Shown here: in pieces, positions 9,353 to 34,060 of the stretch
How the letters are laid out: every line of letters begins with the position of its first letter
Numbering within the stretch: the first letter of the stretch is position 1
From: Zoogloea ramigera
Lineage (GTDB): Bacteria > Pseudomonadota > Gammaproteobacteria > Burkholderiales > Rhodocyclaceae
Reading direction: 5' to 3'
Length of the DNA: 34,189 nt
Assembly (NCBI RefSeq): GCF_006539865.1
Contig: NZ_BJNV01000056.1
Location: 1-34,189 of the forward strand
Notes under the pieces: model-generated
What the model was told of the DNA's origin: nothing
Database searches by the model: none
Seen by the model: the letters and a program-made list of their open reading frames with translations, nothing else
Program-made: the position numbers and the translations under genes

Positions 9353-10075
9353 TCAGATGGAAGGAAGATGGGCCGCCGCCTGGCGCAAGGCCTTGCGGGC
9401 GGCCAGATGGTCCGGGTAAAGGGATTCCACCACGGCCCAGAAGCGCGGCGAATGGTTCATCTCGACCAGGTGCGCCACCTCGTGGGCCACAACGTAGTCG
9501 ATCAGCCCCAGCGGCAGATGCACCAGCCGCCAGTGCAGCCGGATGCCGCTGCGGCTGCTGCAACTGCCCCAGCGGGTGCGGGCATTCGACAGCCCCACTG
9601 CCGGCGTCGGCCGGCCGAGGCGCAGGCAGAACTCCTCGACACGGTGGGTGAATAGCTCGAGGCTGCGCTGCTGCAGGCCACGCAGCAGCAGCTGGCGCGC
9701 ATCGGCGCCGCCCCGCAGGGCCAGCTCGAGCACCTTGTCGGGGCCTTGTTCGTGCCACAACACCCGGTTGTTGCCGCGCCCTAGCCGCAGCTGCCAGGCC
9801 TCGCCGAGGAAGGGGATGGACGCCCCCTCCACCGGCTCGAAGGCCGCCGCGGGCGGTGCCGACGGGCGAGCCTGAAGTTTCTCGACAACCCAGTCCGCGT
9901 GGCTGCGGATGAAGGCTTCCGCCTCGCGCAGCCCCACCCGGAGCGGCACTCCAACGGTGAGGCCGCGGTGGTCGATGCGCAGGCCCAGGGTCTTGCGGGC
10001 GCCGCGCCGCAGGGTATAGGCGATGCGCTGCCCGCCGAGGATGATCTCGCGGAGCTCGACAGCCGCCGCGCTCAC
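9353..10075 (-). CDS. YgjP/DUF45-family zinc metalloprotein
   Basis: The 240-aa product belongs to the YgjP (DUF45, M48-like) family, soluble metalloproteins of uncertain role. The E. coli member is annotated as a UTP pyrophosphatase, and SprT-like protease activity has been suggested for relatives. The zinc motif is HEVAH at 198-202 with a further histidine H208 (VEMNHSPRFW). The preceding family signature TRWGSCSSRSGIRLHWRL is complete. The start is GTG 10075, overlapping the plsC stop by 4 bp (GTGA), so the two are translationally coupled. Fold family is sure; the biochemical activity is not deducible from the sequence. Confidence 0.92.
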   Translation of the reverse strand: MSAAAVELREIILGGQRIAYTLRRGARKTLGLRIDHRGLTVGVPLRVGLREAEAFIRSHADWVVEKLQARPSAPPAAAFEPVEGASIPFLGEAWQLRLGRGNNRVLWHEQGPDKVLELALRGGADARQLLLRGLQQRSLELFTHRVEEFCLRLGRPTPAVGLSNARTRWGSCSSRSGIRLHWRLVHLPLGLIDYVVAHEVAHLVEMNHSPRFWAVVESLYPDHLAARKALRQAAAHLPSI

Positions 10076-10824
10076 GCCGCCGACGTCTCCCTGGGGTGGT
10101 GGCGGTGCTTGTAGTGATGGGGGAAGAGGCGGTGCATCTCGCCCTCGACCCAGGCCTCGGCGCGACGGTTGATCTCGTCGGGGGGCAGGCCCTGGGTATC
10201 GATCGCCGGGCCTATGCTCACCACCACCTCGCCCGGGCGCTTGAGGAAGGCGTTGCGGGCCCAGAATTCGCCGGCGTTATGGGCCACCGGCACCACCGGC
10301 GCGCCGCTTTTGGCCGCCAGCACGGCGCCGCCGGCCTTGTAGCGCTTGCGGCTGCCCGGGGCCACCCGGGTGCCCTCGGGGAAGATCGTGACCCAGAAAC
10401 CATGGCCGAGCCGGTCGATGCCCTGCTCCACCACCTGGGCCAGGGCGTCCTTGCCGGCGGCGCGGTCGATGGCGATCATCGGCATCTGGGCGATGCCCCA
10501 GCCGAAGAAGGGCAGCTTGTGGATCTCGCGCTTCATCACGAAGACCATCGGCGGAAAGATGTCCTGCAGCATGATGGTCTCCCACGCCGACATGTGCTTG
10601 GACATGACGATCGCCGGGCCGGCCGGGATGTTTTCGGCGCCCACCAGGCGGTAGGGGATGCCCAGCACGTGCTTGACGACCCACGCCATCAGGTGCGGCC
10701 AGCCGCGGATGATGCGGTGCCGCGTCTTCGGCCCGAAGGGAAAGGTGGCCATGGCGATCAGCGCGTAAAGCGGCGTGAGCACGGCCAGGGCCAGCATGAA
10801 AAGCAGATTGCGGATCAGGACCAC
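10072..10824 (-). CDS. plsC: 1-acyl-sn-glycerol-3-phosphate acyltransferase
   Basis: PlsC acylates lysophosphatidic acid at sn-2 to give phosphatidic acid at the inner membrane. The 250-aa product starts at GTG 10824, just past the gmhB stop; a longer reading in this frame runs antisense-like through gmhB. An N-terminal membrane helix (about residues 2-28) precedes the acyltransferase motifs: SKHMSAWET (H77, with Glu at the usual Asp place of HX4D) and FPEGTR (148-153). The glycerophosphate-binding motif II is FFGWGIAQMPMIAIDR and motif IV is APVVPVAHN. The H-x4-E variant appears common in betaproteobacterial PlsC copies, so I expect it to be active. It could be one of several acyltransferase paralogues in the genome. 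Confidence 0.93.
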   Translation of the reverse strand: MVLIRNLLFMLALAVLTPLYALIAMATFPFGPKTRHRIIRGWPHLMAWVVKHVLGIPYRLVGAENIPAGPAIVMSKHMSAWETIMLQDIFPPMVFVMKREIHKLPFFGWGIAQMPMIAIDRAAGKDALAQVVEQGIDRLGHGFWVTIFPEGTRVAPGSRKRYKAGGAVLAAKSGAPVVPVAHNAGEFWARNAFLKRPGEVVVSIGPAIDTQGLPPDEINRRAEAWVEGEMHRLFPHHYKHRHHPRETSAA

Positions 10825-26337: not shown

Positions 26338-26414
26338 GGTGATGTAGCTCAGATGGTTAGAGCGATGGATTCATAACCCATAGGTCGGCGGTTCGACTCC
26401 GCCCATCACCACCA
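26338..26414 (+). tRNA. tRNA-Met (anticodon CAT)
   Basis: The 77-nt cloverleaf is complete. The acceptor stem GGTGATG (26338-26344) pairs with CATCACC (26404-26410), followed by discriminator A and an encoded CCA. The D arm is GCTC...GAGC, the anticodon loop TTCATAA gives CAT, and the T arm contains GTTCGACTC. It has no special initiator features (the first pair is G-C), so it is an elongator Met tRNA; tRNA-Ile2 (CAT, later lysidine-modified) is less likely but cannot be fully excluded. The anticodon stem has an A-C mismatch next to the loop. The gene's 3' end borders a mobile element and is its likely attachment site. Confidence 0.96.
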
Positions 26415-26430
26415 ACAGATTCAAGCACTT

Positions 26431-26458
26431 AGGCCAATCCTCCGGGGTTGGCCTTTTT
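26431..26458 (+). terminator. Intrinsic terminator of the tRNA-Met gene
   Basis: A 7-bp stem AGGCCAA (26431-26437) / TTGGCCT (26448-26454), with a 10-nt loop, is followed by five T residues. It starts 17 nt after the tRNA CCA end. If attachment is at the tRNA 3' end, this terminator belongs to the element side and replaces the original one. Confidence 0.85.
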
Positions 26459-26471
26459 GCGTTTGGGGTTC

Positions 26472-26491
26472 GTGTAGCCACGGTGTAGCCA
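26472..26491. repeat. Direct repeat GTGTAGCCA, possible integrase arm sites
   Basis: GTGTAGCCA occurs at 26472-26480 and 26483-26491, one helical turn (11 bp) apart and about 60 bp inside the element. Short direct repeats spaced this way near a tRNA attachment site are typical of arm-type binding sites of tyrosine recombinases. A related CTGTAGCC lies near the right edge (33960-33967). Function is inferred from position only. Confidence 0.4.
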
Positions 26492-26608
26492 GATCGGGAC
26501 GATCCACGGTGCCGACAACGGGGCGCAGCAATCCTTGCCGCGCCATGCGTGGTCAGGAGTGGCAACCGACAGCAAGCGGATTCGCGGGGGTGGGCTACCG
26601 TCCAGGCC

Positions 26609-26821
26609 ATGACCACGCCCAATCCTTCAGCCCCCGATGCCCTCGCGCGCCTCCCCGAGGTGTCCCGCATCGTCCAGCGTTCACCCCGCCAGATTCGGCG
26701 GGATGTTGCGGCCTGCCTTTTCCCTGCTCCGCTGAAGATCGGCGCGCGGGCCATCGCCTGGCGCCGGTCGGACATCGCCGCTTGGATCGCATCCAGGCCG
26801 GCGGCGCGGATCAACGGCTAA
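26609..26821 (+). CDS. AlpA-family transcriptional regulator
   Basis: The 70-aa product has the short winged-helix/MerR-like fold of AlpA-type regulators: a helix-turn-helix in LPEVSRIVQRSPRQIRRDVAA, then FPAPLKIGARAIAWRRSDIAAWIASR, where the 'FP-P-KIG-RA-AWR-SDI-AWI' pattern is the AlpA signature. In P4-like and CP4-57-like elements AlpA activates integrase or excision genes. The ATG at 26609 gives the standard length; the frame is open about 20 codons further but that part is unlike the family. No clear Shine-Dalgarno is present. It is the element gene closest to the attachment site. Confidence 0.85.
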   Translation: MTTPNPSAPDALARLPEVSRIVQRSPRQIRRDVAACLFPAPLKIGARAIAWRRSDIAAWIASRPAARING

Positions 26822-26841
26822 ACCACACCAGGAACACGACC

Positions 26842-27324
26842 ATGGACGAAACCTATTACCCGCGAGCCACCCGGGAGCGCGCCGACAAAATCCCCGACGA
26901 CTTCTTCGACGACAACCCGGAGGTGATCCAGTGCCGCGAGGTTCTCGCCGCGGCCGAAGAGGCACACGAGAAAGTCATCGGGGCGTATCAGGCGGCGATC
27001 GGGACGCTCCAGGCCCTCGAAGCGAGGATTGCCGCTCTCGGCGCTCAAGTGGTCGAAGCACAAGGCGCGCTGAAAGCGCTTGCCGCGCAATGCCCTCAGG
27101 AGGGAGACATGGAGTTCACCGCGGCGGTTGAGGCGCGCGCATCCATCCAGCGCCTGACGTGGCAGCACCAAGCCGCTAACGATGCCATGCCAGCGGCGCA
27201 CGACGCGATGGCCATCGCGCGCCGCCCGGTTGAGGTGGCCTCAATGCGGACGGACAACGCGAGCGTCAAGCTTCGGGAGCTTCTCAAGCGCTTGAAGCTG
27301 GAGCACGCCCAACGCTCGTATTGA
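26842..27324 (+). CDS. Hypothetical coiled-coil protein (160 aa)
   Basis: I do not recognise the family. The ATG at 26842 follows the AlpA-like stop by 20 bp, with AGGAAC 8 nt upstream. The sequence starts with an acidic segment (DDFFDDNPEVIQCREVLAAAEEAH), followed by a long heptad-rich region (about residues 30-85, AIGTLQALEARIAALGAQVVEAQGALKALA) predicted to form a coiled coil. A second helical stretch follows and the C-terminus is Lys/Arg-rich (KLRELLKRLKLEHAQRSY). No membrane segment or enzymatic motif is seen. Codon use resembles the neighbouring element genes. A structural or DNA-associated role is possible but unproven. Confidence 0.75.
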   Translation: MDETYYPRATRERADKIPDDFFDDNPEVIQCREVLAAAEEAHEKVIGAYQAAIGTLQALEARIAALGAQVVEAQGALKALAAQCPQEGDMEFTAAVEARASIQRLTWQHQAANDAMPAAHDAMAIARRPVEVASMRTDNASVKLRELLKRLKLEHAQRSY

Positions 27325-27403
27325 CAACGCGGGCGCCCCGGCCGGCTCGCTGCCTGCCAGGGATGCGCCGCAGCTCGAACCGCGAACCACTCAGGACGCC
27401 ACC

Positions 27404-27853
27404 ATGACCGCCCCCACCTTGACCCCGCACTTTCTCCCCAACACGGACCCGCGCTTCAGTGTCCTGCGTATCGAGGAGGATGCCGAGACCTTCCAGGTCC
27501 GGACCATCCGCGAAGAGCCCGTCATCGGCTGGCGGATCATGGACGACCCCGCGCCCGATACCGCGAACCTCTTCGCGCCCGAGACCTTCGTGATGCCGCT
27601 TCACGCCTCCCTCGGGGGCGACTTGGAGCGCCGGGCTACCAGGACCGTGCATCGCTCGGACGGGCGCGTGCAGCTCGACAGCTACTTCTTTCTGCGCCAT
27701 CCGAATGGGCGGATTGAAAGTCTGTACGAAGGCGACGGCGGCGGCGAAGAGTTCGACGGGTTCAAGGCGTTGCTCCGCACCCTCGACCTGCAAGACCTTG
27801 CGGCCGATGCGGTCCGCCTCCTCGACCCGATGGAGTGGGAAGCCATCCGGTAA
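27404..27853 (+). CDS. Hypothetical protein (149 aa)
   Basis: I do not recognise this protein. It is soluble and acidic, with mixed alpha/beta character: SVLRIEEDAETFQVRTIREEPVIGWRI, FVMPLHASLGGD, QLDSYFFLRHPNGRIESLYEGDGGGEEF (beta-rich), and a helical, Leu-rich C-terminus ending DPMEWEAIR. It has no signal peptide, membrane segment or known catalytic motif. It lies 79 bp after the coiled-coil gene on the same strand. The ordered amphipathic pattern and absence of repeats argue that it is a real gene rather than a shadow of GC-rich sequence. Confidence 0.75.
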   Translation: MTAPTLTPHFLPNTDPRFSVLRIEEDAETFQVRTIREEPVIGWRIMDDPAPDTANLFAPETFVMPLHASLGGDLERRATRTVHRSDGRVQLDSYFFLRHPNGRIESLYEGDGGGEEFDGFKALLRTLDLQDLAADAVRLLDPMEWEAIR

Positions 27854-27916
27854 CCGGCGCCGGCTGCCGGGCAGTGGCAGCCTCAGCACTCGAGATCCAC
27901 CAGGCCGGGGGCAACA

Positions 27917-28267
27917 TTGGGGGTAACACGCGACAAGCGCGACAAGCGCGACGCCATTGACGGGCGCATCCTTGCGCACCTTGAAACGCTGGGCGAGGGT
28001 GAGGGCAAGGGGGTGAGGGCTAGCCAGCTGGTGGAAGCCCTCGGTGTTCCATGGCAGGCCGTCGCCAAGTCATTACGGCGCCTGGCCACCAGCCGCCGCG
28101 TGCTCGTGACCGAAGTGGAGCACCAGGGCCCCAGGTATCGGGTGCGTCGAGTGCGCTACTACCGGCGAAACCTCGGCATGGTCGCCGCCCTGCCCGAATG
28201 GCTGGCACCGCGGGTGCACGCGGTCCAATCGGCGCGGCTGGTAAAGGGCCGGGCGGGCGAAGGGTAG
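27917..28267 (+). CDS. Winged-helix-like DNA-binding protein (116 aa)
   Basis: The sequence GRILAHLETLGEGEGKGVRASQLVEALGVPWQAVAKSLRRLATSRRVLVTEVEHQGPRYRVRRVRYY fits a winged helix: helix 1, helix 2 (ASQLVEAL), recognition helix (PWQAVAKSLRRLATS) and a beta wing. It is therefore probably a regulator of this element. The TTG at 27917 (GGGGG upstream) is the proposed start. The N-terminus is charged and partly made by two tandem CGCGACAAG units (residues RDKRDKRD). The Arg-rich C-terminus may add non-specific DNA contacts. No exact family is recognised; the start is uncertain. Confidence 0.7.
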   Translation: MGVTRDKRDKRDAIDGRILAHLETLGEGEGKGVRASQLVEALGVPWQAVAKSLRRLATSRRVLVTEVEHQGPRYRVRRVRYYRRNLGMVAALPEWLAPRVHAVQSARLVKGRAGEG

Positions 28268-28365
28268 CAAGCTTCGACGCCGGGCCGTCCTTCCCCCAGC
28301 CAGCCGGGCAGCGCCCACCCGGGCGAGGGGTGGCCCCGCGCCTTTCGCGCCCCGCCTTCTTCCGC

Positions 28366-28394
28366 TTGACGCTCGCCGCAGCATAGGGCCTAAT
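28366..28394 (+). promoter_or_regulatory. Candidate sigma-70 promoter for the attenuator/54-aa/252-aa unit
   Basis: TTGACG (28366-28371, 5/6 to consensus) is followed after 17 bp by CCTAAT (28389-28394, 4/6). Transcription would begin near 28400, about 30 nt before the hairpin switch at 28431. This is a by-eye match only. Confidence 0.4.
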
Positions 28395-28414
28395 CTCGAC
28401 TCAGCGCCGATTTG

Positions 28415-28455
28415 AAACACAGCTTGCAGGCGCTTTACAAATGTTGCTAAAGCGG
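28415..28455 (+). repeat. Direct repeat copy 1 (starts the attenuator)
   Basis: The segment from 28415 to 28455 reappears from 28515 to 28555, exactly 100 bp later, with scattered differences. Both copies share GCAGG, then ACAAATG, then TGCTAAAGCG. Both place an ATG (28441 and 28541) followed by codons for MLLKR about 12 nt after a GCAGG Shine-Dalgarno-like sequence, so each could open a leader peptide. Confidence 0.75.
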
Positions 28456-28496
28456 ATCCACAAAACCCGCTTTGGCTCATGCCCGGCGGGTTTTTT
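28431..28496 (+). promoter_or_regulatory. Candidate transcription attenuator (mutually exclusive hairpins plus terminator)
   Basis: Four segments can pair alternatively. Segment 1 CGCTTT (28431-28436) pairs with segment 2 AAAGCG (28449-28454). Segment 2 AAAGCGG (28449-28455) can instead pair with segment 3 CCGCTTT (28467-28473). Segment 3 AACCCGC (28464-28470) can instead pair with segment 4 GCGGGTT (28486-28492), followed by a T-run to 28496. The 1:2 fold allows the 3:4 intrinsic terminator; the 2:3 fold blocks it. This is the layout of a classical attenuator. The start codon of a possible leader peptide (ATG 28441) falls in the loop of hairpin 1:2. The signal sensed is unknown. Confidence 0.6.
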
Positions 28497-28514
28497 GTTG
28501 GGCGTCGCCGAGTT

Positions 28515-28560
28515 AAGACAACTTGCAGGGCGACTCACAAATGCTGCTAAAGCGTCGCCG
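28515..28560 (+). repeat. Direct repeat copy 2 with its own alternative stem
   Basis: This second copy has diverged from copy 1 in the stem-forming bases but keeps folding ability. GGCGAC (28529-28534) can pair with GTCGCC at 28554-28559 downstream or with GTCGCC at 28504-28509 upstream. It lacks a following terminator. The ATG at 28541 is in frame with the 252-aa gene, with no stop between, so an N-terminally extended product cannot be excluded. Confidence 0.6.
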
Positions 28561-28616
28561 CCTCTTCGCCCCCGCGAGGCCGGTCACGCCTCACTTCAGG
28601 GGGCAGGAGTCGCAAC

Positions 28617-28781
28617 ATGGTCACCACCGACCCGGCCGCACAGTCTGGCCGTCCGCAAAGCGCCGAAGCACTCGGCAAATTCGTCCCCCGCCTCCCCGCC
28701 GTCCGCTCGCCGCACCCGGCCCCGCGCAAGGCTTCGCCCCTCGACCTCCCCATCCGGCCCAGCTGGGCGGGCTGGCGCTGA
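28617..28781 (+). CDS. Small Pro/Arg-rich peptide (54 aa)
   Basis: An ATG at 28617 preceded by GGCAGGAG (AGGAG 6 nt upstream) opens a 54-codon frame ending 32 bp before the 252-aa gene. The peptide (MVTTDPAAQSGRPQSAEALG... to ...IRPSWAGWR) has no hydrophobic segment and is rich in Pro, Ala and Arg, with two Trp near its end. It looks intrinsically disordered. The strong ribosome binding site and its position right after the attenuator argue for a translated gene. I do not recognise it. Confidence 0.55.
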   Translation: MVTTDPAAQSGRPQSAEALGKFVPRLPAVRSPHPAPRKASPLDLPIRPSWAGWR

Positions 28782-28813
28782 GTCGCCGACACCATCGACA
28801 GAGGAACGACATC

Positions 28814-29572
28814 ATGAGTATCCGCATCGTGTTTCAGATGGTTGTCATCAAGAAAAGCGCCGTTCGCAAGCACTACCCCGACGGCGAAGCGGGCTTTCGC
28901 ACCGCCTACCCCTTTGCCGCGGAAGACCGCTACCTGTTCGGCCTCGGCAGCATGTCCGGCGGCGAGCTTGAAGAGATCCTGCAGGAACTCACCGCCGCGG
29001 GTTTGGACCTGCCCGAGTGTGCAGCCATCGCCGATTGTCACCAGGGCGCAATCGAGGAGCACCCCGACATCCGCTTCGAGCGGGTATCGAATGAGCCTTT
29101 CGCCCAGTGGAGCGCACGGCTGGCCTGCGACGACCCGGACGAAATGGCGGCCGAGGGCGCCCCGATTGTGCAATGGCTGATGGAAAAGGGGTGGGCACTC
29201 AGCTTGCCCGACGACCCACGGGAGCCCCCGAAGAAGGCGCCCGCCAGGGCCAAAGTGACACGAGTACCGCACGACGGGCGGCTGATCTTCGGGGGCAAGG
29301 GTTCTTTGACACCCTTCAGGCCGAAGCCGACCGCCTCACCCGCGACGCAATCGCCTCAGCCGGACGAGGCGCTCGACATCCTGGCGCCCGGGCAGGAGGA
29401 TCCCGAGCCGGCGATGAAGGGGGCACGAATCTCGCTGGAAACGTCGATGGCCAAATGGTCGCAGGAGGCGTTCGACGAGGAGATGGCCGCTCGCGCGGCG
29501 CGGCGCCAGAGTACGGACAGCCCCGAGACGGTGCAGGACTCCACTACTCGAAAGCCCAGCGGCCAAGCCTAG
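28814..29572 (+). CDS. Hypothetical protein (252 aa) with ordered N-half and disordered tail
   Basis: I do not recognise this family. The ATG at 28814 is preceded by GAGGAAC (GAGG about 9 nt upstream), so I prefer it over in-frame ATGs at 28541 or 28523, whose extra sequence is low-complexity and overlaps the 54-aa gene. Residues 1-145 look folded and alpha/beta (HYPDGEAGFRTAYPFAAEDRYLFGLGSMSGGELEEILQEL, CAAIADCHQGAIEEHPDIRFERV, APIVQWLMEKGWALSLPDD). Residues 146-252 are a Lys/Pro/Ala-rich, probably disordered tail with a short amphipathic helix (ISLETSMAKWSQEAFDEEMAARAARR). It is the largest forward gene of the element and a candidate cargo or effector gene, with no motif that reveals its role. 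Confidence 0.75.
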   Translation: MSIRIVFQMVVIKKSAVRKHYPDGEAGFRTAYPFAAEDRYLFGLGSMSGGELEEILQELTAAGLDLPECAAIADCHQGAIEEHPDIRFERVSNEPFAQWSARLACDDPDEMAAEGAPIVQWLMEKGWALSLPDDPREPPKKAPARAKVTRVPHDGRLIFGGKGSLTPFRPKPTASPATQSPQPDEALDILAPGQEDPEPAMKGARISLETSMAKWSQEAFDEEMAARAARRQSTDSPETVQDSTTRKPSGQA

Positions 29573-29587
29573 CCGGCCGCTCACCTG

Positions 29588-29648
29588 GGGCGGCATCGCG
29601 CCGCCCGCCGTCGAAACAGATCAGGCCGCCGGGCACCCTCGCCCGGCG
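29588..29648. terminator. Two G/C-rich hairpins between convergent genes
   Basis: The stem GGGCGGC/GCCGCCC (29588-29594 / 29600-29606) and the 8-bp stem CGCCGGGC/GCCCGGCG (29627-29634 / 29641-29648) lie between the ends of the convergent 252-aa and 113-aa genes. Neither is followed by a T-run, so termination may be weak or Rho-assisted. Confidence 0.4.
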
Positions 29649-29658
29649 CACTGACACC

Positions 29659-30000
29659 TCAAACCGTCGCGCCCACTTTCTTCAACCTGGCGGACAGGTC
29701 GGCCACCGCGGCACGTGCCGCCGGCAGGGCTGCAATCAGATCCTCTTCCCGTGCTTCCGACATCTCGATGATATGGCGCCCGCCGCCGGCCTGCTTCCGG
29801 GCCCGTACCGCGGCGTAGATGCTCACCAGGTTGCGGCTTGACGGCTCGCGCCCCTCGCCCCGGAGCCAGGCCTGCATTTTCGGATCGGCTGCCATCCGGC
29901 CGGCGTTGTGGGCAATGGCCTGACGTTCGAGGCATTCGAGCACCGCGAAGGCGGAGCGGGCGGATTCGAGATCCAGGCGGGTGGTGTTCATCGTGTTCAT
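29659..30000 (-). CDS. Hypothetical helical protein (113 aa)
   Basis: The reverse-strand ATG at 30000 has GAGG about 9 nt upstream. The product is almost entirely helical: a central LERQAIAHNAGRMAADPKMQAWLRGEGREPSSRNLVSIYAAVRARKQ stretch and a C-terminal segment of alternating acidic and Ala residues (MSEAREEDLIAALPAARAAVADLSARLKK) suggesting a coiled coil. No known domain is recognised. It lies beyond the iteron region, in the same direction as the primase operon but separated from it by a terminator. A role in copy or replication control is conceivable from position only. Confidence 0.7.
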   Translation of the reverse strand: MNTMNTTRLDLESARSAFAVLECLERQAIAHNAGRMAADPKMQAWLRGEGREPSSRNLVSIYAAVRARKQAGGGRHIIEMSEAREEDLIAALPAARAAVADLSARLKKVGATV

Positions 30001-30013
30001 GGTGGTGTCCTCG

Positions 30014-30633
30014 TAGGTGGTGGGTAATGCGTGAGGCAGAGACTACCGCGGCAGAAAACCACCACGTAAGAGAGCGAAACTCACCTTTACTCAGGTTTAG
30101 GGAGGTTTAGGGAGGCGGCAGATCGCCGGTGACACCTGGGCCGGCGGGATCGTGGCCGACACCCGGGCAGGTGAGCGGCGCTCCCTTTTGGCAGAAAAAT
30201 ATTTTCACGGGGGCGGGGTGCGGCGATGTTTGCCGACGGGGGATCGGCGCCCCGCCGGAGTGGTGGGGCAGGTAGGGCGAGGGTAGGCGAGAATCGGAAT
30301 TGCCCTACCTGCCCGAAAGCCAAGCCCAGCAAGGGTTTCCGAATGTAGGTAGGTCTAGGTAGGGCTATTTTTAGAAGAAGAAGAAGAAAAGAAGAATCAA
30401 GTAATAAGGTTTACAGCCCCATAGGGATTCCCGCCAACTCCTGGGAGATTTATTTGTTCCGAAAACTGCCCTACCTGCCCTACCAAATCGCCGAAACCCG
30501 CGCCGGCACTGGGTTTCACGGGTAGGGCAGCCCCTTTTTCTCCCCTACCTGTGCCCTACTTCTGCCCTACCGGCGCCACGGCGGAACCGTCGGCAGACCT
30601 ACCACGCGACGCCACCCACAACGCCACCGCCTG
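30014..30633. other. Candidate replication origin with GCCCTACC iterons
   Basis: This gene-free region holds seven exact copies of GCCCTACC or its complement. Forward copies are at 30302-30309, 30468-30475, 30477-30484 and 30564-30571; reverse copies at 30271-30278, 30359-30366 and 30521-30528. Near-copies are at 30542-30549 and 30553-30560. Several extend to CTGCCCTACCTG. Between them are a purine tract (about 30373-30395, mostly GAA repeats) and short AT-rich stretches (30385-30412, 30447-30459), unusual in this GC-rich window. Satellite helicase-primases such as P4 alpha bind iterons near their own gene, so this is a plausible origin for the adjacent enzyme. A regulatory binding cluster is the alternative. 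From 30014 to 30240 I see only G/C-rich sequence with no gene. Confidence 0.6.
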
Positions 30634-30669
30634 AAAACGACAAGGGCGAACCTTCACGGCTCGCCCTTG
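30634..30669 (-). terminator. Intrinsic terminator of the primase operon
   Basis: Arms 30641-30652 and 30658-30669 form a 12-bp stem with one A-C mismatch and a 5-nt loop. On the reverse transcript, the stem is followed by TTTT (30634-30637). It begins 21 bp after the primase stop and insulates the iteron region from the operon's transcription. Confidence 0.8.
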
Positions 30670-30690
30670 CGTCACCAAGTTACCCGCGGG

Positions 30691-33201
30691 TCAGTCGAAT
30701 GCGCGCGGGTCGAATTCTCCCTTTCGCAACAGGCTGGCAGTGTGGAGCACGATCGGGGGCGTCAACCATTGGTCGGTTCCCCTCGCCTTCCCGGCCGGCT
30801 TGCCGAGGAGCGCCCGGAGCGCCCGCCCGCACTCCTTCGCCTGGGCGTTGGTGGGCGCCTTGATGCCCAACGCCTGCAGCACCTCGCTTGCCGCCAGCCG
30901 TCGCCAGTTGATGCGCGGGACGTCGAAATCCAGCGCGTTGGCCAGCATGTCGTGCACGGCGCTCTTCACCACGTGGCCGGCGTTCCAGTGGTCGAGCTGT
31001 TGCTCTTCCTCCCGCTCCAGCCACCAGCGTTCACCGGCTTCGTAGTAGGTCGCCAGCTGTGCCCATACTTGCTGCATGTCCAGGCTGTGACGGTAGTCGA
31101 CCGCCGTGACCGGCAGCACCCACCATCGCAGATTGCCCGTTTCGTCCTGCAAGAACTCTTCCGGGTTGACCGAGGCAGCAAACACCGTCCGGCGCTGAAA
31201 CTCGGAATCCGTCCGGGCGTAGGGTAGGCGCAGCTTGTCCACCGGGTTGGACAGGAAGGCCTTCAGGCGGGCGATGTCGGCCTTCCGCATCGTGGCGTCC
31301 ACCTCGCCGAGCTCGGTGATCCAGTGCGAGACCGCCGTTTTCACACTGTCCCGGTTGTCCGGTTCGAGAAGCGCGCCCGACAGGATGTAGTCCTGCCGCA
31401 GGCTCTCCGGTAGCAGGCGCATGAACCATGGCGACTTGCCGAGGCTCTGCGCCCCCTGCAGGGTCAGCACGCCCTTGGAGTAGAAGCCCGACGGCTTCAG
31501 GGCTGCAGCCACGGCGCTGATGAGCCACTTGCGCAGCACCAAGTTACGCAGGGGTGCCGGGAAGGTGTCTCGAACCGTCAGCGTGTCTTGCAGGCCGGCC
31601 AGGCGGTCTTGCCCGTCCCACGGCTTCGACTTGATGAAGTCGGCTACCACGTTGCGCGAGTGGTCGTAGGAGATGCTGACGGCCAGGGCTGCCGCACGGT
31701 CAGAGGGCATGTCGTTGATAGACGCCAGGGAGCACATGAATTCCAACGCGGCGTTGTCCGCCTGGTCGGCACAGGTCGCCAGGCCCGGCACATGCACGAC
31801 GGTTTTTTTCCGAATCTCGTCGTAATGCGCCTGGATGCCGTAGCCCTGCATCATCATCCGCATGTTGTCGATGGTCGGCTTGACGAGCATTCCCGTTTTG
31901 GTCTGCTTGGTGTGCGGGAACTGCTCCGGGTTGAGGGCGGGCACGGCGAGGCGAAACGGAATAAACCCGGTCAGGTCCACGTCTGCCGGGCGTTGCGCGA
32001 CCTCGGACGGTGGGGCGAGCATCTTCACTGCCTCGCTCTTGGCGAGAGGGACGCCCTCCAACGTCTTCCAGCGGGCTTGCACCAGGGTGGCCAGGGTGTC
32101 CCGGTCGGCGCTGGTCATGTCGGCGGCGCGGATCTCGACCGCCAGCGCACCCTGTAGCGTGGCCTTGTCTGCGGCGTGAATGCGAGCCTTCCAGTCTGCG
32201 GAAGCGGCCGCCCCGGCCACTGCCACCGCCTGCGCCCGCCGAGCCTTCCACACATCGCCCAGCCAGGCCTTCAGAGTGCCGATGGTGGACGGGCCGTGAG
32301 CCCCGACGCGCTGCTCCGACGCCTTCCGCCAGATCGGCTCCACGCAGCCCTCGGTGTAGTTGGTCGACCGCTGGGACCACTCGATCACGATCTCCCGGGC
32401 GTCGTCTTCCTCCTCGGTGTCGTGGAACTGGTGGTGCGCGGCGAAGATCGCATCCCGCCAGCTGTCCCGGTCGTCGCAGTAGTTGGCCGGCAGCTGGTCG
32501 AGCATCCAGCGCAAATCCTCAAGGCCCACGTCGTCGTGACGGGGCTTCACCGCGTCGAAGGCATCGTCGGGGTCGGCGAAGGAAGCGCCCGTGGCAGTCG
32601 TGGTGCCGGAAAGCTCAGGCATGAAGCCGCGGATCACCAGAATCCGATCAAGGTCCACCCGCACCCACTCGGCCACCTCATCCCGGTCAATCACCGGCAG
32701 CTGCCAGCGCTCAATGTCCAGAATGTCACCATCCGGCCAGGTGTAGGCCCGCAGGGTGTCCGGGTGGATGCCGTGGGTGACGAACTGCTGGCCGATGCCC
32801 AGCACCTCGACCCGATGTTTCAACCCGTCGGCGGTCTTGTACCCGGGGCTGGTGATCTTCGTGCCGGGTGTCTTCGCCGCGTAGAGCAGCAGCCGTTTCG
32901 GCGCCTCGCCGACCCGCTTGGGGGCATCCCCGAAGCGGGCCCGAAACGCCGCCTCCACCTCGTCGGCCACAGCTGACCAGTAGATGTCCAGGTCGACCGC
33001 CACCAGATCGTCCGTCCGAATGCCGACGTTCAGGGCGCCCTTGTCGCCGTTCGCCCAGAAGCCGATCTGGTCTTCGTGCAAGGGCATGGCCTGCCAACCT
33101 TTGACGACCGGGCTCTTACCGTTGACAGGAATCGGCTGGAAGCCGGCGGCGAAGAGGCGCGGGCCGGCATCGCGGAAGGTGAAGGCTTTGGGGGCGGTCA
33201 T
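30691..33201 (-). CDS. Bifunctional primase-polymerase / VapE-type helicase
   Basis: This 836-aa replication enzyme would prime and unwind the element's DNA. Residues about 5-180 form a Prim-Pol (AEP-type) domain: KSPVVKGWQ, the metal-binding D70/D72 (VAVDLDIY), and KHRVEVLGIGQQFVTHGIHP. About 230-325 resembles a PriCT-2 helical domain (LRWMLDQLPANYCDDRDSWRDAIFAAHHQF). About 470-760 is a virulence-associated-E-like SF3-type ATPase: Walker A GAQSLGKS with K589, Walker B HWITELGE (E630/E633), and motif FAASVNPEEFLQDETGNLRWWVLPV. The ATG at 33201 overlaps the upstream gene by 4 bp (ATGA). The longer open frame upstream is Arg-rich shadow sequence. All key residues are present, so it should be active. 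Confidence 0.93.
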   Translation of the reverse strand: MTAPKAFTFRDAGPRLFAAGFQPIPVNGKSPVVKGWQAMPLHEDQIGFWANGDKGALNVGIRTDDLVAVDLDIYWSAVADEVEAAFRARFGDAPKRVGEAPKRLLLYAAKTPGTKITSPGYKTADGLKHRVEVLGIGQQFVTHGIHPDTLRAYTWPDGDILDIERWQLPVIDRDEVAEWVRVDLDRILVIRGFMPELSGTTTATGASFADPDDAFDAVKPRHDDVGLEDLRWMLDQLPANYCDDRDSWRDAIFAAHHQFHDTEEEDDAREIVIEWSQRSTNYTEGCVEPIWRKASEQRVGAHGPSTIGTLKAWLGDVWKARRAQAVAVAGAAASADWKARIHAADKATLQGALAVEIRAADMTSADRDTLATLVQARWKTLEGVPLAKSEAVKMLAPPSEVAQRPADVDLTGFIPFRLAVPALNPEQFPHTKQTKTGMLVKPTIDNMRMMMQGYGIQAHYDEIRKKTVVHVPGLATCADQADNAALEFMCSLASINDMPSDRAAALAVSISYDHSRNVVADFIKSKPWDGQDRLAGLQDTLTVRDTFPAPLRNLVLRKWLISAVAAALKPSGFYSKGVLTLQGAQSLGKSPWFMRLLPESLRQDYILSGALLEPDNRDSVKTAVSHWITELGEVDATMRKADIARLKAFLSNPVDKLRLPYARTDSEFQRRTVFAASVNPEEFLQDETGNLRWWVLPVTAVDYRHSLDMQQVWAQLATYYEAGERWWLEREEEQQLDHWNAGHVVKSAVHDMLANALDFDVPRINWRRLAASEVLQALGIKAPTNAQAKECGRALRALLGKPAGKARGTDQWLTPPIVLHTASLLRKGEFDPRAFD

Positions 33202-33644
33202 GCGGCACCTCGCACTTTCCGGGCTTCGGACAGCCAGGCGGCCAGCTCGGGGCGCCCGGTGTCCGCGTCGAGTGCCAGGGAGTAGGCGGCATAGCGCACG
33301 CTCTCGAACCGATTGGCGGCGTCCTGCAGGCTGGTGACGACGGGCCACCCACCTTGTCGGAGGCGATACACATAGGCGGCCTCCCGCATCGAACGGGCCA
33401 GGCGGTCGAAGTCGCGGGGCGTGATGCCGGCTTGCAGTGGGGTGCCGACGGCTTCGGCCCATGCGGCAGCCTCGATCAGCTCCAGGAGCAACTGCCCGGC
33501 GCAGCTCTTCACCGGCGGCAGCCAGCGGGCACCGGACGCTCGAGCACGTGCTAGACTGGTTTCGAAGTGAGCGGACTTCACCACATTCGGCGCCCGGCAG
33601 ACTGGCAGGTCTGGCCGGGCGTCTTCACGTTCGCGGGGCATCAT
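33198..33644 (-). CDS. Hypothetical protein, possible Ash-family (148 aa)
   Basis: The gene lies between an HTH gene and the primase with overlaps at both ends (33641-33644 and 33198-33201), so it is in the replication operon. The stretch APNVVKSAHFETSLARARASG (residues 19-39) resembles the prophage Ash-family motif seen upstream of P4-type primases, as I recall it. The rest, LLLELIEAAAWAEAVGTPLQAGITPRDFDRLARSMREAAYVYRLRQGG and onward, is helical and unrecognised. The first 40 codons overlap strong hairpins that may instead be a structured leader RNA. It is thus possible that translation starts further in, or that this N-terminus is a by-product of the RNA signal. Confidence 0.65.
   Translation of the reverse strand: MMPREREDARPDLPVCRAPNVVKSAHFETSLARARASGARWLPPVKSCAGQLLLELIEAAAWAEAVGTPLQAGITPRDFDRLARSMREAAYVYRLRQGGWPVVTSLQDAANRFESVRYAAYSLALDADTGRPELAAWLSEARKVRGAA
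33541..33621 (-). ncRNA. Candidate structured leader/antisense RNA (P4 CI / C4-like)
   Basis: Three inverted repeats lie in succession. The first stem is CGCCCGG-CAGAC / GTCTG-CCGGGCG (33591-33602 with 33609-33621; 12 bp, one bulge, 6-nt loop). The second is GAAGT/ACTTC (33564-33568 with 33575-33579), with a GAGCGG loop as read on the forward strand. The third is the palindrome AGCACGTGCT (33543-33552). They sit at the head of the primase part of the operon. P4 controls its alpha operon by the CI RNA processed from exactly this leader position, and P1/P7 use the related C4 RNA. Assignment rests on position and fold, not on a covariance-model match. Confidence 0.35.
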
Positions 33645-33883
33645 TGGGCACCCCCTTCGGTCAGGGCTTCAATGGCGGAGGCGTCCCACAGCAAGCGACC
33701 ATTCGGCAGCTTGGTAGGGCGGAGCCCGAGGTAATGGCCGTTCAGGCACAAGGCACGGCGCAGGGTTTGCGGGCGGACGCGCAGACGGTCGGCGGCCTCG
33801 GTGGTGTCGAGCTTGCGGGGGCGAGCGTGAAGGGCCGGCGAGGCAACAGCGGCGTGATGCGCGGGGGCGAGGGAGTGAGACAT
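33641..33883 (-). CDS. Excisionase-like helix-turn-helix protein (80 aa)
   Basis: From ATG 33883 (GGAG about 9 nt upstream, inside the palindrome GGAGCGCTCC) the product is 80 aa. After a flexible Ala/His-rich N-terminus comes LDTTEAADRLRVRPQTLRRALCLNGHYLGLRPTKLPNGRLLWDASAIEAL, a MerR/excisionase-type HTH with the typical final 'R-L-W-ASAIEAL' segment. Such proteins act as excisionases or repressors of early operons. The stop overlaps the start of the next gene by three bases. A 17-codon upstream extension is open but unlike the family. Confidence 0.8.
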   Translation of the reverse strand: MSHSLAPAHHAAVASPALHARPRKLDTTEAADRLRVRPQTLRRALCLNGHYLGLRPTKLPNGRLLWDASAIEALTEGGAQ

Positions 33884-34060
33884 GCGGAGCGCTCCAGAAT
33901 GAGCGGTCCGGCTGGCGGGCAGGATCTGCGGCAACGACAGGCGGACCGGGGGCTAGTCCGCTGTAGCCGCACCTTCGGCAGCTGAAGTCGTCTTTAGCGC
34001 CTGGATTGCTACCGGTGCAGCGTGAAGACACCGAGACTCACAAGCCAGGAGGCGAACAGG
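33884..34060. promoter_or_regulatory. Divergent region between the HTH gene and the 42-aa ORF
   Basis: This 177-bp region must contain the promoter of the reverse replication operon and possibly one for the forward ORF at 34061. It starts with the palindrome GGAGCGCTCC (33886-33895) covering the HTH gene's ribosome binding site, and contains CTGTAGCC at 33960-33967, which resembles the GTGTAGCCA repeats near the tRNA. I find no convincing -35/-10 pair. Confidence 0.35.

Follow-up and report, generated by a model that had tools for sequence, protein, structure and literature searches.

A repeat array behind a VapE-type primase-helicase gene as candidate replication origin of a small integrative island of Zoogloea ramigera

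In PICIs, the replication origin is reported to lie directly 3' of rep, with two iteron sets placed round an AT-rich region, and a rep-ori segment was found to maintain a plasmid (PMC6092414). The C-terminal domain of SaPI Rep is described as acting on iterons downstream of its own gene (PMC7581432), and head-to-head helicases are reported at SaPI origins (PMC9894130). The origin proposed for pRN1 and phage BIP-1 is a stem-loop located 3' of the gene, and the phage relatives are reported to carry PriCT_2 (PMC4234260); the RepA of PLE is a different initiator (PMC7145576).

We analyzed by computation a window of 34,189 nucleotides (the whole stretch of DNA under study) from Z. ramigera, in which a repeat array lies directly behind a primase-helicase gene. 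An earlier note on this DNA had read the array as a candidate autonomous origin, and our analysis supports that reading. We consider it very likely that a small integrative island has its replication origin in this array, with the primase-helicase whose gene immediately precedes it as partner, and the island is thereby a candidate for autonomous replication. This kind of origin is already known and the window is a further case; less expected, small plasmids and a complete tailed phage were found to share the layout, and a subset of the arrays contains a second element that does not depend on the word. The features of the island outside the array are as follows.

26338-26414, + strand: tRNA-Met, integration target.
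26366-26483, + strand: attachment-site copy, 86% over 119 columns to C101:9501-9619, which lies beside the integrase gene on another contig (C101) of the same genome.
26549-26821, + strand: AlpA-like regulator/excisionase near the attachment end.
29659-30000, - strand: 113-aa ORF beyond the array as seen from the helicase gene; a same-length ORF is at the matching place in the sister island L006 (6980-7321).
30691-33201, - strand: Prim-Pol / PriCT_2 / VapE-type primase-helicase, candidate initiator by domain matches and structure model.
33198-33644, - strand: small ORF that directly precedes the helicase gene and whose stop overlaps the start of that gene.
33641-33934, - strand: HTH_17-type small protein (weak match, under the Pfam cut-off).

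The Prim-Pol/VapE-like character that had been ascribed to the neighbouring gene was confirmed by the presence of PF09250, PF08707 and PF05272 in one protein, which had no Pfam matches beyond Prim-Pol, PriCT_2 and VapE. The helicase is homologous to a PriRep solved with dsDNA: its best structural match was 7pds, PriRep1 with dsDNA (E 1.1e-20, 18-19% identity in the fold match), which was also the sole match in a PDB sequence search (E 1.4e-15). A structure model of the 407-residue C-terminal part (mean pLDDT 84.9) placed helices at 319-327, 342-348 and 356-370 followed by two strands, and residues ~318-390 of the modelled part were read as a predicted winged helix.

The island sits at the tRNA-Met gene, and an integrase gene (C101:9791-11095) adjoins the attachment copy on C101. 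The window and C101 very probably abut in one ~10-kb island, because their ends match positions 2789 and 2793 of L006, an island of Zoogloea sp. STD2_161 whose VapE is 94% identical to that of the window. Given this probable join, the integrase, attachment site and AlpA-type regulator are all present. The L006 island is flanked by perfect direct repeats of 91 bp that are spaced 12 kb apart. The two sister islands occupy different tRNA genes, tRNA-Met in the window (26338-26414) and tRNA-Thr in L006 (12383-12458), and their flanking island ends are ~80% alike. Two integrases of the window's genome, L051 (C96:11563-12867) and L052 (C101:9791-11095), are 81% and 76% identical to that of the sister island; the C101 integrase is very probably part of the window's island and the C96 integrase part of another element. 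Beside the integrase gene of both sister islands, TGGCTACA occurs 3-4 times within 400 bp (L052 ~9701-10100; L006 ~534-983), and these copies are perhaps integrase arm sites. For defence genes in the island, PADLOC returned weak matches only.

Seven exact copies of GGTAGGGC had been claimed at 30271-30571 in both orientations, and all were found in place (30271+, 30302-, 30358+, 30468-, 30477-, 30521+ and 30564-). The near-copies likewise mentioned by the earlier note correspond to one-mismatch copies at 30262, 30348, 30542, 30553 and 30596, and a two-mismatch copy is at 30282. Since near copies flank the exact set, the cluster extends over ~30262-30603. The extended form CTGCCCTACCTG was located at 30466-30477, and the GAA tract (~30373-30397) and AT-rich stretch described among the repeats are present. 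As for the terminator placed beside the array, there is a strong hairpin at that point, which a simple terminator scan did not list. The array and its parts are given below; those listed first have no strand.

30271-30571: repeat array as originally delimited, candidate initiator binding sites; seven exact GGTAGGGC, kept in L006.
30262-30365: repeat set 1, on the side away from the helicase gene; GGTAGG words at 30271+, 30282+, 30304-, 30348+ and 30358+, near copy at 30262+.
30366-30467: repeat-free AT-richer centre with GAA tract, candidate melting site; AT 0.50-0.66 in 50-bp windows.
30468-30603: repeat set 2, on the side nearer the helicase gene; words at 30470-, 30479-, 30521+, 30544-, 30554- (GTAGGG), 30566- and 30598-.
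30637-30672, - strand: candidate terminator (z -6.29), a hairpin immediately 3' of the helicase gene with a short T run (TTTT) after it.

The array begins ~90 bp 3' of the primase-helicase gene, and the order after the helicase stop is hairpin, word set, repeat-free AT-richer ~100 bp with the GAA tract, and word set. Among the gene-proximal GGTAGG/GTAGGG words (offsets 87-215 from the stop codon), 6 of 7 run in one direction, and 4 of the 5 gene-distal words (offsets 326-413) run in the opposite direction, the exceptions being 30521+ and 30304-. The centre is AT-richer than its flanks, not extremely so, with an AT content of up to 0.66 (50-bp windows starting at 30350 and 30375) compared to 0.28-0.42 on the flanks.

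That the repeats form a chance or low-complexity cluster, or belong to a functionless dispersed genomic repeat, can be dismissed for practical purposes. The ten-base form GGTAGGGCAG does occur 39 times in the 4.6-Mb genome, only four of these in the array. By contrast, the window holds 11 exact copies of GGTAGGGC, 7 of them within the 301 bp of the array, where dinucleotide shuffles of the 34 kb gave a mean of 0.70 and a largest count of 3; the earlier argument that chance is excluded thus held. Likewise, the three sites of the 18-base form outside the window's contig are isolated and carry two mismatches each, the cluster is conserved in the sister island, and its position recurs in relatives. 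The cluster is unique in the genome; the word itself is not.

Absence of the repeats from close homologues had been named beforehand as a result that would count against an origin. Instead, the array was found to be kept in L006, which has 10 GGTAGG words compared to 11 in the window, nearly all in the same places and with few individual words changed. The L006 island, surveyed from att to att, has no second array (in any other window no 8-mer exceeds 4 copies). Within the 34-kb window, the array is the richest 400-bp interval for copies of one 8-mer (7 copies; best elsewhere 4; step 50), and no interval of the C101 part exceeds 3. These counts bear on the alternative that the array serves copy-number control or incompatibility, as the crr of P4 does, and is a second initiator-binding region, with the true origin elsewhere in the island. 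In P4, crr lies just behind the alpha gene and ori elsewhere, and initiator binding alone would yield the covariation of word and protein described below. With no other 400-bp interval above the counts just given, and with two repeat sets round an AT-richer centre being the reported layout of PICI origins, we regard this alternative as improbable and retain the array as the origin.

It had been proposed to search related islands for the same word next to VapE/Prim-Pol genes. By this approach the same word was found in the sister L006, while part of the more distant relatives carried another word at the same spot. Using thresholds that were chosen after a first look at the data, at least 5 copies of one 8-mer were detected in the first 400 bp 3' of VapE in 21 of 54 loci, a set that contains the window and its sister, compared to 0 of 166 control ORF ends. 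The controls were ORFs of 250 codons or more, counted from stop to stop in any frame of the same loci, and not annotated genes. The same count was reached in 15 of 98 later viral-contig loci; fewer than 5 exact copies of one 8-mer were found in this interval in 33 of the 54 and 83 of the 98. In 13 of 28 long loci, the richest 400-bp 8-mer window had its centre within ~300 bp downstream of the VapE stop, and a 14th showed this in part. Dropped before the 54-locus count were loci with less than 400 bp downstream (L039, L040, L043, L048) and near-duplicates (L012, L029, L036, L055). The 98 later loci were drawn from 170 by leaving out duplicates, loci with short downstream sequence and loci of the first set, and some close relatives remain among them. 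The array words found 3' of VapE were as follows.

L038, L042: GGTAGGAC.
L041: GGTTAGGA.
L044: GGTGGGGA.
L007, L012: GTAGGGCA.
L013: GGTGGACC.
L019, L023: GGTGACAT.
L021: TTGGTCAC.
L027: ACTGTCAG.
Plasmid pPSEST02 (9.9 kb, circular): GGTGGGAT (GGTGGGA x9).
Plasmids pSCU-121-2 (9.1 kb) and pR17.0904_9.3k: AGGTGTCA, beginning ~300 bp after the stop.
Roseomonas p1318-3: GGGACAC.
Phage Alexa: GGTTGCAC, from ~280 bp after the stop.
Phage 2638A: AAGGGACG.

Phage Alexa carries genes for terminase, portal, capsid and tail, and thus the layout is not confined to satellites. No array was found behind the gene in 8 of 11 phage records (Mica, ep3, Persinger, FoX1, Mano, PPpW-3, SFCi1 and KA2-1), and phage phiWae15 has a weak one; in 3 of 8 plasmid records (L057, L059, L060) the array was absent or weak. 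Plasmid L056 also carries RepM, and thus the VapE module is not its only replicon. A search with the PF05272 family model gave matches in 11 of 369 genomes of the class. Two of these loci were too short downstream (L074, L075), one has a stop inside the match (L076), and L079, L081 and L082 come from genomes already in the first set. Of the 9 loci with enough downstream sequence, L076 included, the window and L072 have strong arrays, L078 a weak one (4 copies) and the other six 2-3 copies. At L072 (G457), a locus that came from the family-model search and not from similarity to the window, GTAGGAAC occurs 12 times right behind the VapE gene. The proposition that arrays are universal behind VapE was rejected, as many phage, plasmid and viral-contig loci are without a clear one.

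Two side observations concern these records. The circular plasmid pPSEST02 (L053) carries, within its 9.9 kb, a recombinase, AlpA, VapE, the array and a terminase small subunit, and looks like a satellite living as a plasmid. More distant arrays, ~1.7-5.2 kb after the VapE stop, are present in L009, L028/L029 and L030 (AGGTGGAT x10, AGTGTACC x5, CTCAGTCA x7), and are either displaced origins or something else.

We compared the similarity of the repeat words with that of three parts of each VapE protein: N-part, helicase core and C-terminal segment. The words of the first 24 loci were picked by judgement; for L022 the array used lies past the first 400 bp. By Mantel tests that take no account of kinship among loci, correlation (rho) with the word in this set was highest for the C-terminal segment (0.377, p 0.0005), compared to 0.312 for the N-part and 0.231 for the core. 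The partial correlation of the C-terminal segment given the core was 0.348 (p 0.0005), that of the core given the C-terminal segment -0.175, and the N-part kept a partial correlation of 0.217 (p 0.001). For 25 later loci, the correlation with the word was again highest for the C-terminal segment (0.367; partial given core 0.260, p 0.003; core given C-terminal segment -0.041), and the values for the N-part were 0.076 and, as partial, 0.043 (p 0.27). Nearest neighbours did not separate the two segments in these 25 loci (similar word in 16 by core and 15 by C-terminal segment). In 40 combined dereplicated loci, the nearest relative had a similar word in 22 cases by C-terminal segment, 12 by core and 9 by N-part. 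The relation was sharpest in seven viral-contig loci (L016, L017, L019-L023) with helicase cores alike at 0.86-0.96: the word of the nearest relative was identical or closely similar in 7 of 7 when chosen by C-terminal segment, 2 by N-part and 1 by core, and the GGTGACAT loci parted from the TGGTCA-type loci by their C-terminal segment. As the word tracks the C-terminal winged helix and not the helicase core, the winged helix probably reads the repeats and is the candidate recognition domain. Our literature search, which covered few subscription papers, found no report of such a link across VapE proteins. Helicases that resemble one another closely but differ in word and C-terminal segment offer a direct route to origin-recognition rules, and these rules bear on which satellites, plasmids and phages can share a cell.

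The covariation also bears on whether the repeats are instead operator sites of an island regulator (AlpA-like or HTH_17-like) for the genes on either side, with no origin involved. The island does encode two candidate DNA-binding regulators, and repeats in both orientations suit regulators too. However, no sigma-70-type promoter-like site was found in 29600-30800, arrays are found again behind VapE in records with otherwise different neighbours, and the word varies together with the VapE C-terminal segment. We therefore give operator sites little credence next to an origin.

A second element, distinct from the repeat word, was detected within the arrays. In the window it is represented by two copies.

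30491-30515, + strand: AAACCCGC-type element, palindromic GAAACCC...GGGTTTC; matrix score 16.2, next best 9.9.
30326-30345, - strand: weaker GAAACCC copy within the opposite half of the array, with AAACCC at 30333-30338; offset +352 from the stop codon.

The 7-mers common to 29 arrays included AAACCCG (13 of 29) and the overlapping AACCCGC (11 of 29), the only G+C-rich words in the top ten, compared to a sharing maximum of 7-9 in ten runs of shuffled arrays. A matrix built from seven copies of five loci, excluding window and sister, had its best match in the whole 34-kb window at 30491-30515, inside the array. Of the 98 later loci, which are not all independent, 20 had their best match within the 400 bp behind VapE, compared to ~7 expected by length; scores of at least 12 were found within these 400 bp in 8 loci and in the rest of the locus in 16. 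Both pPSEST02 and the window have one copy per half-array, 4-11 bp from a repeat. The form AAACCCGC[AG]TGG...GGCTT, independent of the word, is also present in the arrays of L053, L042, L041, L044 and L199, several of which have one per half-origin. As a general origin signal AAACCC was partly rejected, because a terminator-like hairpin near the gene end holds the match in L016, L019, L020, L023, L062, L068, L070, L209 and L217, and because high matrix scores were also found outside the 400 bp behind VapE in the later loci. A hairpin as working part of the window's element was likewise rejected, the single-strand fold being within chance (z -0.02). We can only guess that the AAACCCGC-type element is a primer start or host-factor site; no report of it was found in the same literature search.

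Taken together, the origin reading rests on an array that far exceeds chance, is kept in L006, stands alone in the window, the C101 part and the sister element, and recurs behind VapE, and further on the small circular plasmids that carry the module, the word that follows the C-terminal segment, the 7pds match and the precedent of PICI and SaPI origins. In the mechanism we propose, the island would excise from tRNA-Met by means of its integrase and AlpA, and the helicase would bind the repeats through its C-terminal winged helix. As the repeats are mainly opposite on the two sides of the centre, two helicase rings would load facing each other; they might then melt the AT-richer centre, and the host polymerase would start from primers made by the Prim-Pol domain.

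A broader proposal, to which we assign even chances, is that VapE-type origins are one modular class common to satellites, small plasmids and tailed phages. In such a class the C-terminal winged helix and word would change together, the helicase core and primase part would stay or swap, and the word could be forecast from the helix; the word-independent AAACCCGC[AG]TGG...GGCTT, often in both half-origins, would be a common part (primer start or host-factor site) of a subset. If this proposal is true, the printed claim that the layout is in no known bacterial replicon other than PICIs needs revision. In either case the window provides a defined, testable replicon for a betaproteobacterial island and extends the PICI-type origin to a group and to kinds of element outside the published descriptions, as far as the portions cited here go.

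Of known systems, the Gram-negative PICI EcCICFT073 (PMC6092414) is similar to the window in having a fused primase-helicase followed by an origin with two repeat sets round an AT-rich region, and AlpA and integrase in the element; the comparison is by layout and not by iteron words. The PICI-type rep-ori features are present in the window as a fused primase and helicase/initiator with repeat sets immediately 3' that flank an AT-richer centre. The window differs in its host, Zoogloea (Betaproteobacteria), in the lack of a terS or capsid match among the 9 window proteins searched, and in transcription that is not all one way as described for EcCICFT073: the ORFs of the AlpA end (26549-29572, +), the reality of some small ORFs being uncertain, run towards those of the helicase gene (29659-33934, -).

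Similar to SaPI Rep-ori and SCCmec Cch2 (PMC7581432; 7pds and 7ola matches), the repeats lie directly 3' of the helicase's own gene, with a C-terminal domain that in the window would read them. Unlike SaPI Rep and Cch2, the window protein has an N-terminal Prim-Pol and PriCT_2, and its identity to 7pds is the low value given above. With pRN1 ORF904 and phage BIP-1 the window shares Prim-Pol, helicase, winged helix and an origin 3' of the gene; a stem-loop is proposed there (PMC4234260), whereas the window has repeats, and the fold of its palindrome is within chance.

A P4-type origin was considered and dropped, since the domains differ from those of P4: unlike P4 alpha, the window protein matches the three families named above and no others. 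P4 is similar in being a satellite with a primase-helicase and adjoining repeats, and its word is presumably different from that of the window, which the earlier note could not match to it; this is unsurprising because words differ across the family. P4 is not the closest system for comparison, because the layout of the window is that of PICI and SaPI origins (PMC6092414, PMC7581432).
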